Source: an uncultured Pseudomonadota bacterium (GTDB taxonomy: Bacteria; Pseudomonadota; Gammaproteobacteria; Methylococcales; Methylomonadaceae). From it: a DNA stretch of 64,000 nucleotides. The number at the start of each line of letters is the position of its first letter. Within the stretch, counting starts at the first letter, position 1. The stretch covers positions 124,001 to 188,000 of the forward strand of contig CAIQDI010000018.1 in NCBI GenBank assembly GCA_903870545.1, written 5' to 3'. Shown here piece by piece: positions 5,896 to 13,356 of this stretch. The notes under the pieces were generated by a model. It worked only from the letters and a program-made list of their open reading frames with translations, searched no databases and was not told the DNA's origin. The position numbers were made by a program, and so were the translations under genes.

Positions 5896-7164
5896 TTAAA
5901 AATTACCTACCGCTCGTTTCATTCGCAAACCCGCTAACGCTAAATCATAATTCGCATTATTCAAATTATTATGCGTTATCGTTCGTAAATCTTCCGCTTG
6001 AATCACTTCGGTGTGCGTCGCTAAACCTTGTTGATAGCGGTCTGTTGTGACTTTTAGATTTTCATCCGCTTGCACAATCGTTTGTTTAGCCACTTGCAAA
6101 CGTTGTTGTGTTTCTTGGCTATCCAACCACGCTTGCCGAATTTGTAACAAAATTTGTCCAGACAATTCTTCGCGCTGCTCTTTTAACGCTAAGGCTTGTT
6201 TTTCAAAGGCTTCGCCCTTGTGATTCGTACTACCATCGTACAATTTCCAATCCACGCCGACATTTGCTTGCCACAAACCTTCGTACGCCTGATAACGATT
6301 TTGTTGATATTGATAACCGCCATTCAACGCCACTTGCGGCAATAAACCCGCTTTCATTGCCTTCGTTTGTTCATGCAAACTTTCGATTTGTTCATTCAAA
6401 ACGACTAACTCAGGACGTTGAGTTAACGCACTTTGATTTAAATTTTCTAACGTTGATTTTGGCAATTCAGGAACTTGTTTGGCGAGTTCTACTTTCGCTG
6501 TCAAGGGGCGCGTCAACAATTGGTTATAACGCGCTTTGGCATTGTCATAAACATTCGCCGCTTGTAACAAAAGTTGTTTCGCGTTCAATAATTCAACGTC
6601 CGCCGCCAACACATCATTTTTCGCCACCACGCCTTGGTCAAACAAATCTTTCACGTCTTTTTGATGACTTTCTAAACTGTGAATATGACTTTGGGCGACT
6701 TGCACCGCATCTTCCAAACGCAAAACCGCGATATAACTATCCGCCACCTGCATTTTCAAATTCAACGCGGCAACCTGTTCACTCGCTTGCGTCGCGTCCA
6801 ACGTGGCTTGCGCGGCATTGATGTTGTGGGTAATTTTGCCGCTGGTATAAATTGGCAACGTCGCCATCGCTTGCGCTTTCACGCTGCCCATTTGTTGCAT
6901 CGCAAATTGGGCGGCTTTCCCTTCAATACTTGTTTTTGCCGATGGCGTTTCGTTATATTGCGTGTAACCCGTGCCGACATTTAAATCAGGTAAATTCTGC
7001 CCTTCAGCTGCTTGTAGTTGTGCTTGTGAAACGTCGGTATTCGCTTGTGCGGCTTTGATTTGATGATTGCTATTTAATGCCGCTGTCCACGCATCGTTTA
7101 AATTTTCAGCGTGTGTCGTCGTCGCTAAACATAAACTTAACCATAAAAAATTAGTTCGTGGCAT
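5896..7164 (-). CDS. TolC-like outer-membrane efflux protein
   Basis: The product is an outer-membrane channel of the TolC/OEP family that would serve as the exit duct for the adjacent EmrAB pump. The start at 7164 gives a 422-residue protein with a signal peptide ending at about THA/ENL, preceded by a good AAGGA site; a longer frame reaching to 7203 lacks a signal peptide at its start. The rest is two repeated OEP modules of long heptad-rich helices (for example QVAQSHIHSLESHQKDVKDL and the related LRQ/QEELSGQILLQIRQAWLD part) joined by short beta segments. The start overlaps the end of the upstream tetR gene, giving a tetR-tolC pair transcribed away from emrAB. Confidence 0.9.
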   Translation of the reverse strand: MPRTNFLWLSLCLATTTHAENLNDAWTAALNSNHQIKAAQANTDVSQAQLQAAEGQNLPDLNVGTGYTQYNETPSAKTSIEGKAAQFAMQQMGSVKAQAMATLPIYTSGKITHNINAAQATLDATQASEQVAALNLKMQVADSYIAVLRLEDAVQVAQSHIHSLESHQKDVKDLFDQGVVAKNDVLAADVELLNAKQLLLQAANVYDNAKARYNQLLTRPLTAKVELAKQVPELPKSTLENLNQSALTQRPELVVLNEQIESLHEQTKAMKAGLLPQVALNGGYQYQQNRYQAYEGLWQANVGVDWKLYDGSTNHKGEAFEKQALALKEQREELSGQILLQIRQAWLDSQETQQRLQVAKQTIVQADENLKVTTDRYQQGLATHTEVIQAEDLRTITHNNLNNANYDLALAGLRMKRAVGNF

Positions 7165-7771
7165 AGCCAATTCCTTGTAAAAAAAGTGCGGTAGCTGATT
7201 CAATCAATTGTGTTTTTTCCTGTTCATTCGGGGGCGGTTGTACGCTTAATAAACACCGAAAATGTAACTCACCTTTTAATAAACTAAAAAACGCATCGGC
7301 AGCAAAACGCACATTTGCAATAGATAAAATTCCAACGTCATTTAATGGCTGTAAATAAGATTCTAATTGCGCGACGGCAATTTTTGCGCCGTTGTCATAA
7401 ACCATTTGTCCTAATTCTGGGAATTCATGACTTTCAGCAATGACTAAACGATACATTGCCAGTCCGTCTGGTGAATAAAGTAGTTCAACAAATACTTCGG
7501 CAATTTTTTTTAGATTTTGGGCAACATTATCGGTGGTCGATAACGTTTGCGTGAGGGTTTGCAATAACGCGCCACACAATTCGCCAACCACCGCCGCCAG
7601 CAACGCATTTTTGCTGTCAAAATGGTTATAAAGTGTCGCTTTGGAAACCGGTGCAGCTTGTGCAATTTTATCCATGCTCACACTGCGATAATTATTATTT
7701 AAAAATAAGCGCGTCGCGGCTTGCACAATGGCTTCACGTTTTGGGTCGATGGATTCAATAAATTCAGTCAT
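7151..7771 (-). CDS. TetR-family transcriptional regulator
   Basis: This 206-residue protein has an N-terminal TetR helix-turn-helix (about residues 12-58: IVQAATRLFL, SMDKIAQAAPVSKATLYNHF) followed by an alpha-helical ligand-binding domain. It is divergent from emrA-emrB and its 3' end overlaps the TolC-like gene by 14 bases. The intergenic space contains a perfect 23-bp inverted repeat placed over the predicted emrA transcription start, so the protein most likely represses the efflux operon, and possibly its own gene, until a toxic compound binds. The ligand cannot be named from the sequence. Confidence 0.92.
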   Translation of the reverse strand: MTEFIESIDPKREAIVQAATRLFLNNNYRSVSMDKIAQAAPVSKATLYNHFDSKNALLAAVVGELCGALLQTLTQTLSTTDNVAQNLKKIAEVFVELLYSPDGLAMYRLVIAESHEFPELGQMVYDNGAKIAVAQLESYLQPLNDVGILSIANVRFAADAFFSLLKGELHFRCLLSVQPPPNEQEKTQLIESATALFLQGIGYATN

Positions 7772-7785
7772 TTTTAAACCAACAC

Positions 7786-7813
7786 TTGCTAAATTAAACG
7801 GATGATTTAGAAT
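7786..7813 (+). promoter_or_regulatory. Predicted emrA promoter
   Basis: TTGCTA (7786-7791) and TAGAAT (7808-7813) are spaced by 16 bases, just upstream of emrA, and the operator palindrome begins at the -10 end. Confidence 0.45.
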
Positions 7814-7834
7814 AAACTAAACCGTTTAGTTTAT
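7812..7834. promoter_or_regulatory. Palindromic operator for the TetR-family repressor
   Basis: ATAAACTAAAC and GTTTAGTTTAT form a perfect 11-bp inverted repeat around one central base. It sits between tetR and emrA, overlapping the expected transcription start of emrA. Size and position are typical of TetR-family operators; binding is inferred. Confidence 0.75.
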
Positions 7835-7846
7835 CAAGGTCATTCA

Positions 7847-8869
7847 ATGAAACGTCTTCTTACTTATTTAACTTTAATTTCAATTTTGGCGGGCGCGGGT
7901 TGGGCAGGTTTTTCGTGGTTTGAAGAACGCCAACATTACGAAAGCACCGACAACGCCTATTTAAAAACCAATAGCGTTTTGATTACGCCCAAAGTGGCTG
8001 GCTACATTACCGATTTGCGAATTGACGATAATCAAACCGTCAAAAAAGGTGAGGTGTTAGCCGTCATTGATGACCGCGATTATCAAGCCAAACTAGAGTT
8101 TGCTCAGGCGCAAGTGATTGAAGCACAAGCGCACGCCCAACGGGTTCGCGCCACGAAAAATACGCAACACGCCAACATTGCCAGCGCAGATGCAGCGGTT
8201 TCGGTGGTGCAAGCCAAACGTCATCACATTACGCAAGATTTGGAACGCTTCACCGCGTTAATCGAACGCGGTTCTGCCCCGCAACAAATACTCGATAAAA
8301 TGCACGCCGAATCGAAACAAGCAGCCGCCGAATTGCGCGGTTCGCAAGCCGCCGTTTCCGCGCAACAAAAACAACTGACCAGTTTTGACAGCGAAATTTC
8401 CGAAGCGGAAGCGCGGGTTAAACAAATGCAAGCGCAAGTTTCGTTGGCAAAAATCGATTTGGACAATACCAAAATTCGTGCGCCGTTTGATGGCGTAATT
8501 GGACATCGAGGCGTACAAATTGGCGCGTATGTTGAAGCGGGAACACATTTAGCATATTTGCTTGAAACGCAGAAAATCTGGGCGGAAGCCAATTTTAAAG
8601 AAACGCAAATCGAAAATATGAAAGTCGGTCAGCCAGTCAAAATTCATGTTGATGCGTATCCGACTTTGAATTTTACCGGCAAAGTCGATAGTTTCGCGCC
8701 CGCCAGTGGTTCAGAATTTAGTATTTTACCCGCCGAAAATGCGACCGGAAATTTCACCAAAATCGTGCGCCGGGTGCCAGTGAAAATCGTTTTTGATGCC
8801 AACGAAAATACCACGTTATTGAAATCGGGCTTTTCGGTGAATGTGAAAGTGGAAGTGAAACCATTATGA
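7847..8869 (+). CDS. emrA: EmrA-like membrane fusion protein (HlyD family)
   Basis: This is the periplasmic adaptor of a tripartite multidrug pump. The 340-residue product has one N-terminal membrane helix (LLTYLTLISILAGAGWAGFSWF), the EmrA-like motif STDNAYLKTNSVLITPKVAGYI, a biotinyl-lipoyl-like half domain, an alpha-helical hairpin rich in Ala/Gln/Lys (about residues 90-205), and the second lipoyl half with IRAPFDGVIGHRGVQIGAYV followed by a beta-barrel. It starts with a short AAGG site 12 bases from the operator and overlaps emrB by 4 bases, so the two are translated together. The start of the operon is directly under the palindromic operator. Confidence 0.93.
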   Translation: MKRLLTYLTLISILAGAGWAGFSWFEERQHYESTDNAYLKTNSVLITPKVAGYITDLRIDDNQTVKKGEVLAVIDDRDYQAKLEFAQAQVIEAQAHAQRVRATKNTQHANIASADAAVSVVQAKRHHITQDLERFTALIERGSAPQQILDKMHAESKQAAAELRGSQAAVSAQQKQLTSFDSEISEAEARVKQMQAQVSLAKIDLDNTKIRAPFDGVIGHRGVQIGAYVEAGTHLAYLLETQKIWAEANFKETQIENMKVGQPVKIHVDAYPTLNFTGKVDSFAPASGSEFSILPAENATGNFTKIVRRVPVKIVFDANENTTLLKSGFSVNVKVEVKPL

Positions 8870-10386
8870 CCGCCGTCAATGCAAGAGGCGAACGGATTTT
8901 AACAACCGGCGAATGGATTGGATTTTTCAGCATGGCGATTGGCGTATTCATGGCGGTGTTGGACATTCAAATTGTCGCCAGTTCGTTACAAGAAATTCAA
9001 GCAGGTTTGTCCGCGACGCAAGATGAAATCGCGTGGGTGCAAACGTCGTATTTAATCGCCGAAGTTATTATTATTCCGTTGTCGGGCTGGCTCGGACGGG
9101 TTTTTTCGACGCGCTATTTATACGTTTTATCGGCAGGTGGTTTTACCTTGGCGAGTTTGGCGTGTGCGTTTGCGTGGAATTTACCGTCAATGATTGTGTT
9201 TCGCTGCATTCAAGGATTTTTCGGTGGCGCGATGATTCCAATGACTTTTACGATTATTTTCATTTTGTTCCCGCCGCGATTACAACCGACGATGAGTATT
9301 GTGTTGGGGCTAATCGTCACAATGGCACCGACAATTGGCCCTGTTTTGGGCGGTTATTTAACCGATTCCTACAGTTGGCAATTGCTGTTTTTAATCAATA
9401 TTATTCCCGGTTTTGTCGTTTGTTTTATGGTGTTTACTTTTCTCGACATCGACAAACCCGATTGGGCGTTATTACAAAAAATGGATTTTATCGGCATTGC
9501 CTTGATTGCGATTTGTTTAGGTTGTATGCAAGTGGTGTTGGAAGAAGGCGCACGCAATCAATGGTTTGAAGATGATTTAATTTTGATATTGACGGTTGTC
9601 GCGGTATTGAGCGGCGCGGCAATGTTTTGGTGGGAATTGGTTAATCCGCACCCGATTATTGATTTGTATGCGTTTAAAAATCGAAATTTCGCGGTCGGTT
9701 GCGCGTTTAGTTTTGTTTTAGGAATTGGGCTTTATACGATTATTTATTTAACGCCGATTTATTTGGGCAGCATTAAAGGGTTGAATAGTTTGCAGATTGG
9801 CTATTATTTGATGGTCGTCGGCCTGTTTCAATTAATGTCGGCATTCGTCGCAGGGCCGCTCGAAAAGAAATTAGATTTACGTTTGATGCTGTGTTTGGGC
9901 ATGAGTATGTTTGCGCTGGGTTCATGGTTGAATGGTGAATTAACGGCTGAATCAGGTTATTGGGAATTTTTCTTGCCGCAAGCCATTCGCGGTGGCGCGT
10001 TGATGTTTTGTTTTTTGCCGATTAACACGTTGACGTTGGGTTTATTGCCGATGGACGAAGTGAAAAACGCCAGCGGTTTGTATAATTTAATGCGAAATTT
10101 AGGCGGCGCGATGGGTTTGGCGGTAGCGAATACGTTGATGTTGAATTTGAACAAAACCCATTATGCGGCGTTGCGTGAATCGATTAGTGCGACCGATGAA
10201 ATCGGGCAACATTTAACGCAACAAAATTTGGCACGTTTGACAACTTTAGCGTGGCGCGAAGCTGAAATTATGACGTTTAATAATCTGTTTCAAATTATCG
10301 CTTTCATCTTTTTATCAGCATTATTGCTCGCACCTTTTTTACGAAAAGTGGGCGCGGAAAAAGCGGCATCGTTACCGATGGAGTGA
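8866..10386 (+). CDS. emrB: EmrB-like drug transporter (MFS, DHA2 family)
   Basis: The product is a 506-residue proton-driven multidrug exporter with 14 predicted membrane helices, the hallmark of the DHA2 branch of the major facilitator superfamily. It contains the DHA2 pattern FMAVLDIQIVASSLQEIQAG in helix 1, the loop motif IPLSGWLGRVFSTRYLYV, and the motif C-like GPVLGGYLTDSYSWQLLF in helix 5. The start ATG overlaps the emrA stop (ATGA). Together with emrA and the divergent TolC-like gene it forms a complete EmrAB-TolC type pump spanning both membranes. The substrate is unknown; relatives export hydrophobic toxins, uncouplers or fatty acids. Confidence 0.93.
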   Translation: MTAVNARGERILTTGEWIGFFSMAIGVFMAVLDIQIVASSLQEIQAGLSATQDEIAWVQTSYLIAEVIIIPLSGWLGRVFSTRYLYVLSAGGFTLASLACAFAWNLPSMIVFRCIQGFFGGAMIPMTFTIIFILFPPRLQPTMSIVLGLIVTMAPTIGPVLGGYLTDSYSWQLLFLINIIPGFVVCFMVFTFLDIDKPDWALLQKMDFIGIALIAICLGCMQVVLEEGARNQWFEDDLILILTVVAVLSGAAMFWWELVNPHPIIDLYAFKNRNFAVGCAFSFVLGIGLYTIIYLTPIYLGSIKGLNSLQIGYYLMVVGLFQLMSAFVAGPLEKKLDLRLMLCLGMSMFALGSWLNGELTAESGYWEFFLPQAIRGGALMFCFLPINTLTLGLLPMDEVKNASGLYNLMRNLGGAMGLAVANTLMLNLNKTHYAALRESISATDEIGQHLTQQNLARLTTLAWREAEIMTFNNLFQIIAFIFLSALLLAPFLRKVGAEKAASLPME

Positions 10387-10572: not shown

Positions 10573-11958
10573 ATGTATCAATTCAAAAGCTCAATTTTAA
10601 CCTTTTCAATTTTATTAACCGCCGCTACCAGTTTTGAAGCGAGTGCCTTACCGAGTTTCACCCGTCAAACTGGCGCGGCGTGTAGTCAATGTCACACGCA
10701 ATCGTTTGGCCCGAATTTAACCCCGTTTGGACGTGATTTTAAATTGGGCGGTTATACGATGGGTAATAACAACAAAGATTCTAAAATTCCCGCTGTTAGT
10801 GGAATGGTGCAAGGTTCATTTACGCACATTCAACAAGACAAAGATCCTTCTGGCTCTAATCCTGGCAATAAGAATAATGATGCCACCGCGACTAACAATG
10901 ATGATGACCCGTTTAACAATAAAAATAATACGACAACGTTTGATCAAGCCTCATTATTTTATGCTGGGCGCGTTTATGAAAAAGTAGGCGCGTTCAGTCA
11001 ATTAACGTTTGATGGTTACGCCAAACGATTAGCGTTAGATAACACGGATATTCGATTTGCGGACAATACTGAACTGTTTGATATGCCAATAACTTATGGT
11101 ATTTCAGCAAATAATAATCCAACTGTTCAAGATTTATGGAATACAACCAGTGCTTGGGGATTTCCTTATGCCAGCAGTGCTACACAACCAGGTGTTGGAA
11201 CAAGCGCGTTGATTGACGGAACACTTGGAACGCAAGTGGGTGGCGCGACGGCTTACACCATGATTGATAATTTACTTTATCTCGAAGCAGGTGGCTATAC
11301 GTCGCTAAGTAACAATGTTCAAAAAGGTTTGGGCGTTGCAGATGCACAGCAAAATCAAATTGACGGTGCCGCACCTTATTGGCGTGTAGCATTGCAAAAA
11401 GATTGGAAGGGGCATTTTGTTTCGATTGGTCATTACGGCATGATGGCAAATGTTTTTCCCGCGCGTGATCGTAGCACAGGTAAAACTGACCATTACACGG
11501 ACGTGGCATTGGATGCGACTTATCAATATATGGCAAATCCAAAGCATATTTTTGAAACAAAATTAACCTATATTTATGAAGATCAAAAATTGTCTGCTTC
11601 GCGTATTCTTAATTCACTCAGCCCAAATGCTAAAACCTATTTGAATACGTTTAAAATCAATACCGCTTATACGTTTGATCAGACTTATGGCATTACACTC
11701 GCTTATAACCAAATCAACGGTTCAAATAATGCGACGCTTAATTCTGAAGACGGTAGCTACTCTTTTTATAAGCCAAACAGCAATTATTTTACAGCTGAAT
11801 TAGTTTATGTTCCGTTCGGTAAAACGACTTCTTATCTTGCGCCGTGGTTGAATTTGCGTACCAGCTTGCAATACATCGGTTATACAAAAGCAAATGGGGC
11901 AAGTTTTGAGGCAACTACGAACAACACGTTCTTGATTAACGGGCAATTAGCGTTTTAA
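10573..11958 (+). CDS. Fused monohaem cytochrome c-porin, Cyc2-like candidate
   Basis: The 461-residue product has a signal peptide ending near ASA/LPS, then one haem c site (C37-S-Q-C40-H41) in the context FTRQTG..CSQCH...GPNLTPFGRDFKLGGY, then about 400 residues of alternating hydrophobic/polar strands, many Asn/Thr/Tyr, and a terminal Phe. This layout, a single haem c plug followed by an outer-membrane beta-barrel, is that of Cyc2-type cytochrome-porins that move electrons across the outer membrane, for example in Fe(II) oxidisers. The barrel and Cyc2 relation are inferred from pattern; related uncharacterised proteins exist in other gammaproteobacteria. An AGGA ribosome-binding site precedes the start. 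A strong terminator follows, then a gene for a membrane c-type cytochrome. Confidence 0.65.
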   Translation: MYQFKSSILTFSILLTAATSFEASALPSFTRQTGAACSQCHTQSFGPNLTPFGRDFKLGGYTMGNNNKDSKIPAVSGMVQGSFTHIQQDKDPSGSNPGNKNNDATATNNDDDPFNNKNNTTTFDQASLFYAGRVYEKVGAFSQLTFDGYAKRLALDNTDIRFADNTELFDMPITYGISANNNPTVQDLWNTTSAWGFPYASSATQPGVGTSALIDGTLGTQVGGATAYTMIDNLLYLEAGGYTSLSNNVQKGLGVADAQQNQIDGAAPYWRVALQKDWKGHFVSIGHYGMMANVFPARDRSTGKTDHYTDVALDATYQYMANPKHIFETKLTYIYEDQKLSASRILNSLSPNAKTYLNTFKINTAYTFDQTYGITLAYNQINGSNNATLNSEDGSYSFYKPNSNYFTAELVYVPFGKTTSYLAPWLNLRTSLQYIGYTKANGASFEATTNNTFLINGQLAF

Positions 11959-11984
11959 TTTCGACTAAAATTTATTTTATATTC

Positions 11985-12024
11985 AAGGCGTTCAAAATTC
12001 ACTTTTGAACGCCTTTCTTTTTTT
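11985..12024 (+). terminator. Strong terminator between the two cytochrome genes
   Basis: AAGGCGTTCAAAA (11985-11997) and TTTTGAACGCCTT (12003-12015) pair over 13 bases with a 5-base loop and run into a T-tract. The ribosome-binding site of the next gene begins immediately after the T-tract, so this may act as an intra-operon attenuator that leaves the cytochrome-porin in excess. Confidence 0.85.
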
Positions 12025-12038
12025 AAGGATTACAGATT

Positions 12039-12767
12039 ATGGCTGATAGCACTTATTCGCGATTCAAAGATATTTCAATTAGCGAACGGATTTTAAACAC
12101 CGTTTTTTTGCTGACGATTGGACTGGGATATTTAGCCGCGCTGGCAAATATGTATTACACGCATCAAGGTTTGGACGGGAAAGCCGGGCTTTCGGTGGAA
12201 GACGTGGTGATTAGTTATTACGGTTCGTCCACGCAAACACGTTTGGGAACAGCGGTAAAAGGCATTATGGCTCCGAACTTAAAAATCAAAAGTGACCAAG
12301 ATGTGATTTTGAAATGGATTCATGCTGGCGCGGATGAAGAAGGTTATAACCAAAACATTGCGCCGATTTTGAATCGCGATTGTGTGTTGTGTCACACACC
12401 AAGCATCAATCCGTCGTTGCCGGATTTAACGAATTACGCGGGTGTTTCTGAAGTTTCCCACGCCGGTGGCGCGACCATTCCAACCTTAATTCGCATCTCG
12501 CACATTCATTTATTTGGCATTGCGTTTATTTTGTTTTTTATTGGCAAAATTTTTCTACTTTGCGAAATCAATGTTTACGTCAAACGTGTCGCAATGGTGG
12601 TGCCGTTCGCCGCGATGTTGTTGGATGTGGTGTCGTGGTTCATCACAAAATCGATTCCAGGGTTTGCTTATGTGGTGATTTTAAGTGGCGCGTTGATGGG
12701 CATTTCGATGGGTTTACAAATTTTATTGAGCATTTATCAAATGTGGTTTTTTTCTGACAAAGCGTAA
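12039..12767 (+). CDS. Inner-membrane protein with one c-type haem site
   Basis: The 242-residue product has one N-terminal membrane helix (about 17-40), a periplasmic segment with a haem c motif C115-V-L-C118-H119 in the context NIAPILNRDCVLCHTP, and three further membrane helices (about 153-176, 183-205, 208-236). Histidines H141, H155 and H157 lie near or at the start of the second helix and could bind another haem or a quinone site. No named family was recognised. Its position right after the outer-membrane cytochrome-porin suggests that it passes electrons between the quinone pool or a periplasmic carrier and that protein. The function is inference from the pairing. Confidence 0.6.
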   Translation: MADSTYSRFKDISISERILNTVFLLTIGLGYLAALANMYYTHQGLDGKAGLSVEDVVISYYGSSTQTRLGTAVKGIMAPNLKIKSDQDVILKWIHAGADEEGYNQNIAPILNRDCVLCHTPSINPSLPDLTNYAGVSEVSHAGGATIPTLIRISHIHLFGIAFILFFIGKIFLLCEINVYVKRVAMVVPFAAMLLDVVSWFITKSIPGFAYVVILSGALMGISMGLQILLSIYQMWFFSDKA

Positions 12768-12858: not shown

Positions 12859-13356
12859 ATGATAAATAACGATGTATTACGCCGTTTGCGTTACGCTTTA
12901 AATTTAAATGACGCGGCAATGATGGACGTATTTGCGTTGAGCGATTACGACATAACGCGCGAAGATTTGCTGCACCTGTTGAAAAAAGACAATGACGACG
13001 GTTTTGTCCCCGCGAGTAATGAGCAATTGACGTTGTTTTTAGACGGCTTAATCACTTACAACCGAGGCAAAAAAGAAGGCAGCGAAGGCGACGTTGTCCA
13101 AAAACCTAAAGGTGAATTGGACAATAACACCATTCTGAAAAAACTGAGAATCGCTTTTGAATTCAAAGAAGAAGATATGCTGCACACGCTTAAATTGGCG
13201 GATTTTGAATTGTCAAAGCCTGAACTCAGTGCTTTTTTTAGACACGAAGCGCATAAACATCATCGTAAATGCGGCGATCAAGTGTTGAGAAATTTTTTAC
13301 AAGGTCTCACGGTTCATTTTCGACAATCTGACCAAACCAACGAATCCGACGACTAA
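12859..13356 (+). CDS. DUF1456 (YehS-like) family protein
   Basis: The 165-residue product consists of two copies of an about 65-residue alpha-helical module of the DUF1456 family: NNDVLRRLRYALNLNDAAMM...LFLDGLI at the N-terminus and NNTILKKLRIAFEFKEEDML...NFLQGLT at the C-terminus, joined by a charged linker. This matches E. coli YehS in size and duplication. The biochemical role of the family is not known. The gene stands alone and is followed by a strong terminator. Confidence 0.88.
   Translation: MINNDVLRRLRYALNLNDAAMMDVFALSDYDITREDLLHLLKKDNDDGFVPASNEQLTLFLDGLITYNRGKKEGSEGDVVQKPKGELDNNTILKKLRIAFEFKEEDMLHTLKLADFELSKPELSAFFRHEAHKHHRKCGDQVLRNFLQGLTVHFRQSDQTNESDD

Follow-up and report, generated by a model that had tools for sequence, protein, structure and literature searches.

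A conserved gene pair for a Cyc2-like cytochrome-porin and a four-helix monohaem cytochrome in methanotrophs of the order Methylococcales: a candidate electron route between cell surface and respiratory chain

Cyc2 of strain PV-1 oxidizes Fe(II), with a potential of 208 mV, and proteins of this type are recognized by a unique motif, AXPXFAR[Q/K][T/Y], ahead of CxxCH and by a fold likened to OprO and OprP (PMC8406198; this and the other papers are cited for parts of their texts). Two relevant elements are already in print for Methylobacter: Cyc2 itself (PMC6344600, PMC12211021, PMC12810054), placed by PMC12810054 in cluster 2 of the three published clusters, and an MtrA-MtrB cluster of four genes with a four-helix monohaem cytochrome, tied to methane-dependent current (PMC13322032, June 2026). 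Evidence for periplasmic and inner-membrane partners of Cyc2 is limited according to PMC12442390, which describes IrcABCD as comprising periplasmic cytochromes with one or two haems, a b-type cytochrome, and a hypothetical protein. Here we analyse a stretch of 64,000 nucleotides (the window; contig CAIQDI010000018.1 of assembly GCA_903870545.1) from an uncultured member of the Methylomonadaceae, a methanotroph judging by the pmoA gene, the key gene of methane oxidation, in its genome of 2.68 Mb in 39 contigs. The window carries gene A, which encodes a Cyc2-like cytochrome-porin, followed by gene B, which encodes a monohaem c-type cytochrome of the inner-membrane type. We found this pair to be conserved among relatives, and we propose, with moderate confidence, that it serves as an inward electron route from the surface to the respiratory chain. 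In the main texts of the literature on methanotroph Cyc2 and Mtr systems, parts of which were covered and of which supplements and most subscription journals lie outside our scope, we came across no account of the A-B pair, of a B family common to Cyc2-like and Mtr conduits, or of an exchange of barrels.

The N-terminus of A resembles a signal peptide, with an A-S-A site ahead of L26 (judged by eye), and leads into a haem segment (ALPSFTRQTGAACSQCHTQSFGPNLTPFGRDFKLGGYT) that holds the only CxxCH of the protein, CSQCH; the strand-rich remainder ends on Phe. This is the layout that the initial annotation had read from the sequence, with one CxxCH near residue 37. C37, C40, and H41 are invariant in all 33 aligned homologues, and the haem segment ranks among the most conserved parts of A, on which ground we rejected an ordinary porin. 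The Cyc2-type barrel suspected at the outset was borne out by an AlphaFold2 model (33 homologues), which places 16 strands between residues 75 and 460 at a mean predicted local distance difference test score (pLDDT) of 68 and a predicted template modelling score (pTM) of 0.71, and gives no soluble fold. Ranked by Z score, the best matches of the model were OprP (2o4v; Z 21.3, root-mean-square deviation [rmsd] 3.3, 300 aligned residues) and OprO (4rjw; Z 21.2, rmsd 3.7, 312 aligned), with many further 16-strand porins within 1 Z of them; in Foldseek's own order, OmpT of Vibrio cholerae came first, OprP tenth, and OprO 30th. Neither A nor B had a Pfam match above cut-off or an NCBIfam match at expectation values (E) up to 1, and PDB sequence searches gave nothing informative beyond the haem segment of B, which matches a cytochrome c in a profile search (best E 4.2e-9, the sole low-E match). 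Because relatives of A occur in 25 and relatives of B in 48 of 61 whole genomes, a set made up of the source genome and its relatives, the two genes are not chance open reading frames (ORFs).

Measured against the published definition of Cyc2, A has the signal peptide (by eye), the single N-terminal CxxCH, and a predicted 16-strand porin domain of the OprP/OprO type, the minimum length being 365 aa and that of A 461 aa. It also has PxL, as PNL, five residues past CxxCH, where PMC8406198 gives four; the spacing is 3, 4, or 5 residues in the 69 of 71 distinct Cyc2-like proteins in which PxL was detected. Ahead of the haem site, A reads ALPSFTRQT, with Thr for Ala. Because the strict motif is missed by this one residue, we call A Cyc2-like on the strength of its sequence and do not file it as Cyc2. 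The strict motif is found in 24 of the 71 proteins and in 5 of the 34 that come from Methylococcales; the table of motifs omits four entries in which truncation at a contig end leaves the gene without CxxCH, and three of these four are copies of a single gene. In a tree of A, built by a quick method and with long branches flagged, as in the tree of B, 33 of the 34 Methylococcales rows group together with a Shimodaira–Hasegawa-like approximate likelihood ratio (SH-aLRT) support of 80, which becomes 98 once two rows from other orders join, and L076 falls outside (L and G numbers denote loci and genomes). A starred group with the window protein takes in 30 of the 34. All five strict-motif rows lie within the group of 33, and two of them, L005 and L014, in the starred group.

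The next gene on the same strand was expected to encode a membrane-anchored CxxCH and three more helices, and the AlphaFold2 model of B (32 homologues; mean pLDDT 83, pTM 0.62) confirms this, with helices at residues 14-44, 147-172, 179-203, and 207-237 and CVLCH (115-119) in a small helical domain between the first two. Hydropathy agrees with four helices, the last three being not cleanly separated. Invariant residues in a set of 83 B-family proteins include Y60, G62, M77, W93, C115, H119, H155, H157, P189, and D196, and C118 is kept in 82 of them. H155, H157, and D196 fall inside predicted membrane helices, as might be expected of a site for quinone, and M77 may ligate the haem. A fold search with B returned no Foldseek match at E <0.001, which is no evidence of a new fold; the best Z score of the model, 8.4, was to helical bundles and may, for a helical model, reflect a common arrangement only. 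Plasmids gave no match to B.

Conservation of the pair, on which the initial annotation depended, held up well. A and B adjoin in 24 of the 25 genomes with A, counting one with the order B-A (G046), one with the pair on two contigs (G016), one with A interrupted (G026), and one with A decayed (G034). Among 30 named loci, which overlap the whole-genome set and are not independent of it, 29 could be assessed for gene order (L003 stops with A), and in 25 of these B follows A directly on the same strand, with no more than 398 bases between them. The pair is present in Methylovulum miyakonense HT12 (L030), a record named as a strain, and outside the order it occurs in tandem at L164 (G081); the genes are neighbours but divergent at L169 (G100), and A stands without adjacent B at L171 (G228). 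In Crenothrix polyspora RSM_CP1 (L028/L090), A is interrupted and the adjacent B is full-length. Across the class, a sample of 321 genomes contained B-family genes in 62 and A-like genes in 56, many of the latter found through the haem segment only. As far as the compared DNA extends, the pair outlasts its surroundings. We sought the other window neighbours (TolC, TetR, EmrA, EmrB, DUF1456, U32 peptidase, and TrhO) beside the pair at 38 loci: TolC and EmrAB are kept at L002 (91-95% identity), L009 and L010 have distant EmrA- and EmrB-like matches (26-33%), and no further match appeared at these loci, where the DNA upstream of A is shorter than 3 kb in 13 cases and the DNA beyond A runs out early in several.

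Several observations weigh against joint work of A and B as an electron route. Besides the Thr in the motif of A, the pLDDT of its model falls below 50 at residues 16-50, most of the haem segment, and the model does not address the position of the haem plug. A is present without B beside it in G060, and 4 of the 29 assessable loci deviate from the A-B order: L018 has no B near A, at L021 and L024 the opposite strand carries a B-family gene or fragment, and at L026 another B type lies upstream and a fragment on the opposite strand; each of these four genomes has a further B-family gene elsewhere. For 31 of the 83 B-family proteins, the compared DNA shows neither an A-like or MtrB gene within a distance of 600 bases nor a hydrogenase gene within one of 2500, a label that depends on distance (the A-like gene is one ORF from B at L165 and about 3 kb away at L166, both beyond 600 bases) and that was withheld from six rows near contig ends, marked as short. 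In favour of a link between A and B stands G034 (L077, 5067-6300), where A is a remnant, its early and last parts being joined in a 103-residue ORF whose frame differs from that of the haem segment, and where CIGWH replaces CxxCH in the adjoining B, the sole such case among the 83 proteins; this joint decay of A and B is one case and possibly an assembly error.

The spacer adds a further point to those against. A conserved terminator-like hairpin, whose stem leads into a T run, separates A from B, so co-transcription is doubtful and we dropped a simple operon; its likely effect, judged from the sequence, would be less B than A. The region has 7 terminator-like sites against 4.3 +/- 2.4 in shuffles, so that a single match is weak and conservation is the argument. 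An exact search for the core stem found this site alone in the source genome. At 10 of the 14 loci of the genus where the hairpin could be assessed (L001, L002, L004-L013, L025, and L027) the stem pattern fits; in L011 and L013 the hairpin is retained and a single pair has become G-U, whereas L004 and L027 carry GGCATT/AATGCC in place of GGCGTT/AACGCC, a paired change (these four by eye). Outside the genus the sequence of the spacer differs, with other hairpins in some loci and none found in others. The hairpin, the B-family genes without A, and the exceptions at L018, L021, L024, L026, and G060 would all agree with A and B being neighbours by inheritance only, without joint work. We consider this very improbable, as the pair is kept where the other window neighbours are not, recurs outside the order (L164), and occurs in two separate parts of the tree of B, and as the only genome whose A has decayed also has a B that lost the haem motif.

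Table 1. Features of the A-B locus, with positions in the window
Feature	Position	Strand	Remarks
Gene A, Cyc2-like fused monohaem cytochrome-porin	10573..11958	+	461 aa, ATG start
Parts of gene A product			signal peptide ~1-25; haem segment ~26-70 with CSQCH 37-41; 16-strand barrel ~75-460 (residues)
Terminator-like hairpin between A and B	11985..12015	+	stem of 13 pairs, loop of 5, followed by TCTTTTTTTA
Gene B, inner-membrane-type monohaem c-type cytochrome	12039..12767	+	242 aa, ATG start; 80 bases past A
Upstream neighbour, major facilitator drug-efflux type (EmrB-like)	8866..10386	+	close homologue beside the pair only in L002
Downstream neighbour, DUF1456 protein	12859..13356	+	no homologue in 38 loci, several ending soon after the pair

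Upstream of A, window positions 5896-10386 hold a drug-efflux set of TolC, TetR, EmrA, and EmrB types (the EmrB type by Pfam, the others by resemblance). EmrAB and DUF1456 were dropped as members of the system on the conservation summarized in Table 1.

What follows Cyc2-like genes elsewhere helps to place B. Nine plasmid loci with such a gene were hit and seven examined; in six of the seven, with L205 as the exception, the next gene is an annotated c-type cytochrome with one or two CxxCH, no hydrophobic helix past the N-terminus, and no match to the profile of B. L204 and L209, plasmids of Acidithiobacillus ferrooxidans and Acidiphilium multivorum with a Cyc2-like gene, a c-type cytochrome, and similar neighbours, share gene content and are not independent; the Cyc2-like copy of the Acidiphilium multivorum plasmid is annotated in two pieces. 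L207, from a plasmid of the alphaproteobacterial methanotroph Methylocystis sp. MJC1, has the Cyc2-like gene followed by three c-type cytochrome genes. In class genomes, haem proteins without the B profile follow the Cyc2-like gene at L172, L173, L178, and L179 (two checked by Pfam), and no cytochrome follows it at other loci, for example, L175, L176, and L177. In the methanotroph pair, B fills the slot of the soluble-type cytochrome c.

If A and B work together as an inward route, A, located in the outer membrane as a barrel with a single haem attached to its N-terminal segment, would accept electrons from reduced humic matter, dissolved Fe(II), or both. Their carrier to the haem domain of B at the inner membrane would be a soluble cytochrome c of the periplasm, and B would feed them into the respiratory chain, with quinone or an oxidase as the probable acceptor. 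Given the dimensions of the periplasm, a pair of single-haem proteins should be unable to span it unaided; because monohaem A and B would be too far apart, a soluble carrier would be needed, and direct transfer from A to B was dropped on distance, a matter of general knowledge. Of the compact route to the quinone pool envisaged in the initial annotation, the two-protein form is thus unlikely, and contact with quinone is suggested by the invariant His and Asp residues in the membrane helices of B.

For the direction of flow, the activity of PV-1 Cyc2 and the response of cyc2 in Methylobacter S3L5C, which rises with dissolved organic matter (PMC12211021), would by analogy favour inward transport. 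The direction can also be argued the other way, with B taking electrons from quinol and A passing electrons that stem from methane on to Fe(III) or humic matter under a shortage of oxygen. The Mtr-type cluster, for which outward flow was inferred and a link to methane-dependent current reported (PMC13322032), includes a B-family gene, and Fe(III) or humic acceptors were proposed for Methylobacter with Cyc2 and porin-cytochrome genes (PMC6344600). We regard outward work as unlikely: in the texts covered, the Cyc2 proteins of tested activity oxidize Fe(II) (PMC8406198), the response of S3L5C was read by its authors as that to an electron source (PMC12211021), and the word Cyc2 is absent from the main text of PMC13322032.

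The neighbours of Cyc2-like genes outside the order bring in another possibility, that A serves metal handling, such as surface oxidation or uptake of copper or another metal, and B only disposes of the electrons. Efflux genes of the resistance-nodulation-division (RND) type lie beside the Cyc2-like gene at L164 and L176 (by Pfam) and at L171 (by resemblance), and methanotrophs need copper for particulate methane monooxygenase (pMMO). RND pumps are, however, common neighbours and none is beside A in the window, where the efflux genes are of the EmrAB drug type and have close homologues by the pair only in L002, so that we judge metal handling improbable.

Returning to the inward route, the gene family of its proposed inner-membrane end is not confined to Cyc2-like neighbours. 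The initial annotation had set the pair apart from the multi-haem Mtr type, a separation that does not stand, as in the same genome a B-family gene is the last member of an MtrA-MtrB cluster. This cluster (L072, 6242-10876, contig 24) encodes a small monohaem cytochrome c, a decahaem protein of the DmsE/MtrA type (TIGR03508, E 1.8e-84, ten CxxCH), an MtrB/PioB porin (TIGR03509, E 3.9e-127), and the B-family protein. MtrB scored above the family cut-off in 11 of the 61 genomes, and in 8 of these, including the source genome, a B-family gene lies at most 500 bases away; G034, G045, and G058 have MtrB without one. In a tree of the 83 B-family proteins, from which proteins <200 aa or weaker than E 1e-25 were excluded, and on which counts of label changes cannot separate gain from loss, the eight MtrB-linked proteins form one group (100/100) and three proteins near [NiFe] hydrogenase genes another (100/96). 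Thirty A-linked proteins lie in one part of the tree, mixed with four without an adjacent A and three near contig ends, and the A-linked L026, L076, and L095 lie in a distant part.

The hydrogenase-linked genes come from three class genomes (L189, L190, and L195) and lie in or near [NiFe] hydrogenase clusters; at L190, the only one of these where hydrogenase, cytochrome b, and maturation protease were checked by Pfam, the B-family gene lies between cytochrome b and the protease. At L079 (1262-5923), a B-family gene stands behind two others, one for a protein of 736 aa that has six CxxCH and one for a protein of 533 aa that has no Pfam match and is maybe an outer-membrane barrel, which makes a third type of conduit possible. 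A third B-family gene of the source genome (L071, 6863-7834, contig 23) encodes 323 aa with a C-terminal extension and adjoins genes that resemble ribonucleotide reductase.

The barrel of A appears to be exchangeable in its turn. Between the window and L002, synonymous divergence (dS) is 0.29-0.49 in EmrA, EmrB, TolC, and B and 0.16-0.31 in the first 70 codons of A; in the barrel (10783-11958) it is mostly >1, with a stretch at 201-270 of 0.48. DNA identity starts to fall from about 0.9 at about 10780, averages 0.71 across the barrel (0.26-0.86 over stretches of 100 bases), and recovers at the stop of A. The barrel of L002 is 86% identical to that of L007 and 71% to that of the window, which we therefore dropped as the carrier of the exchanged barrel. 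In contrast to this barrel, the upstream DNA, the haem segment, and B of L002 are closer to the window (91, 93, and 91% identity) than to L007 (44, 78, and 79%). Recombination with a relative of L007 has thus probably replaced the barrel of L002 and left its haem segment in place.

Taken together, we tentatively suggest, as a possibility that we rate clearly below the inward route, that the B family consists of widespread, unnamed, single-haem four-helix ports of the inner membrane that are linked to quinone and plugged into Cyc2-like porins, MtrA-MtrB, and [NiFe] hydrogenases, with barrels that recombination can replace from one species to another without touching the haem segment. If this were true, the surface conduits of methanotrophs would be interchangeable heads on one inner-membrane part. 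The A-B pair offers a concrete candidate for the inner-membrane partner of Cyc2, and it matters for the question of whether methanotrophs of lakes take up or give off electrons by way of iron and humic matter, and hence for methane removal at low oxygen.

In its proposed place as the inner-membrane link to a surface conduit, B is like the quinol dehydrogenases CymA and NapC, from which it differs in having four predicted helices, CymA and NapC being anchored by a single one. It also has one CxxCH, whereas they have four and are tetrahaem proteins (PMC13322032), and it lacks a Pfam match to the NapC family at E up to 1, so that it does not belong to the tetrahaem NapC/NirT type. B shares with IrcABCD, MtoD, and CymA/ImoA of iron-oxidizing Gallionellaceae the role of a candidate inner-membrane or periplasmic partner of Cyc2 or Mto (PMC12442390); the cytochrome types described there for IrcABCD are unlike B, a distinction made by description only. 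With the cytochrome of the Methylobacter Mtr cluster (PMC13322032), B has in common one CxxCH and four predicted helices. It is homologous to the MtrB-adjacent B-family protein of the source genome, which we liken to the cytochrome of that paper by description; B, however, is only 32% identical to this paralogue, belongs to another part of the tree, and adjoins a single-protein, one-haem conduit, whereas the paralogue is the one encoded next to MtrA-MtrB with its decahaem protein. Finally, A resembles Cyc2 (PMC8406198) in its signal peptide (by eye), its single CxxCH followed by PxL, its predicted OprP/OprO-like 16-strand barrel, its length of >365 aa, and A-x-P-x-F-x-R-Q-T ahead of the haem. 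It differs in the Thr that takes the place of Ala in the strict motif, in the absence of a surrounding rus-type operon such as that of PMC10654088, and in its partner, which is a four-helix membrane cytochrome, the corresponding place at six of the seven plasmid loci being taken by a cytochrome c that has no additional hydrophobic helix.

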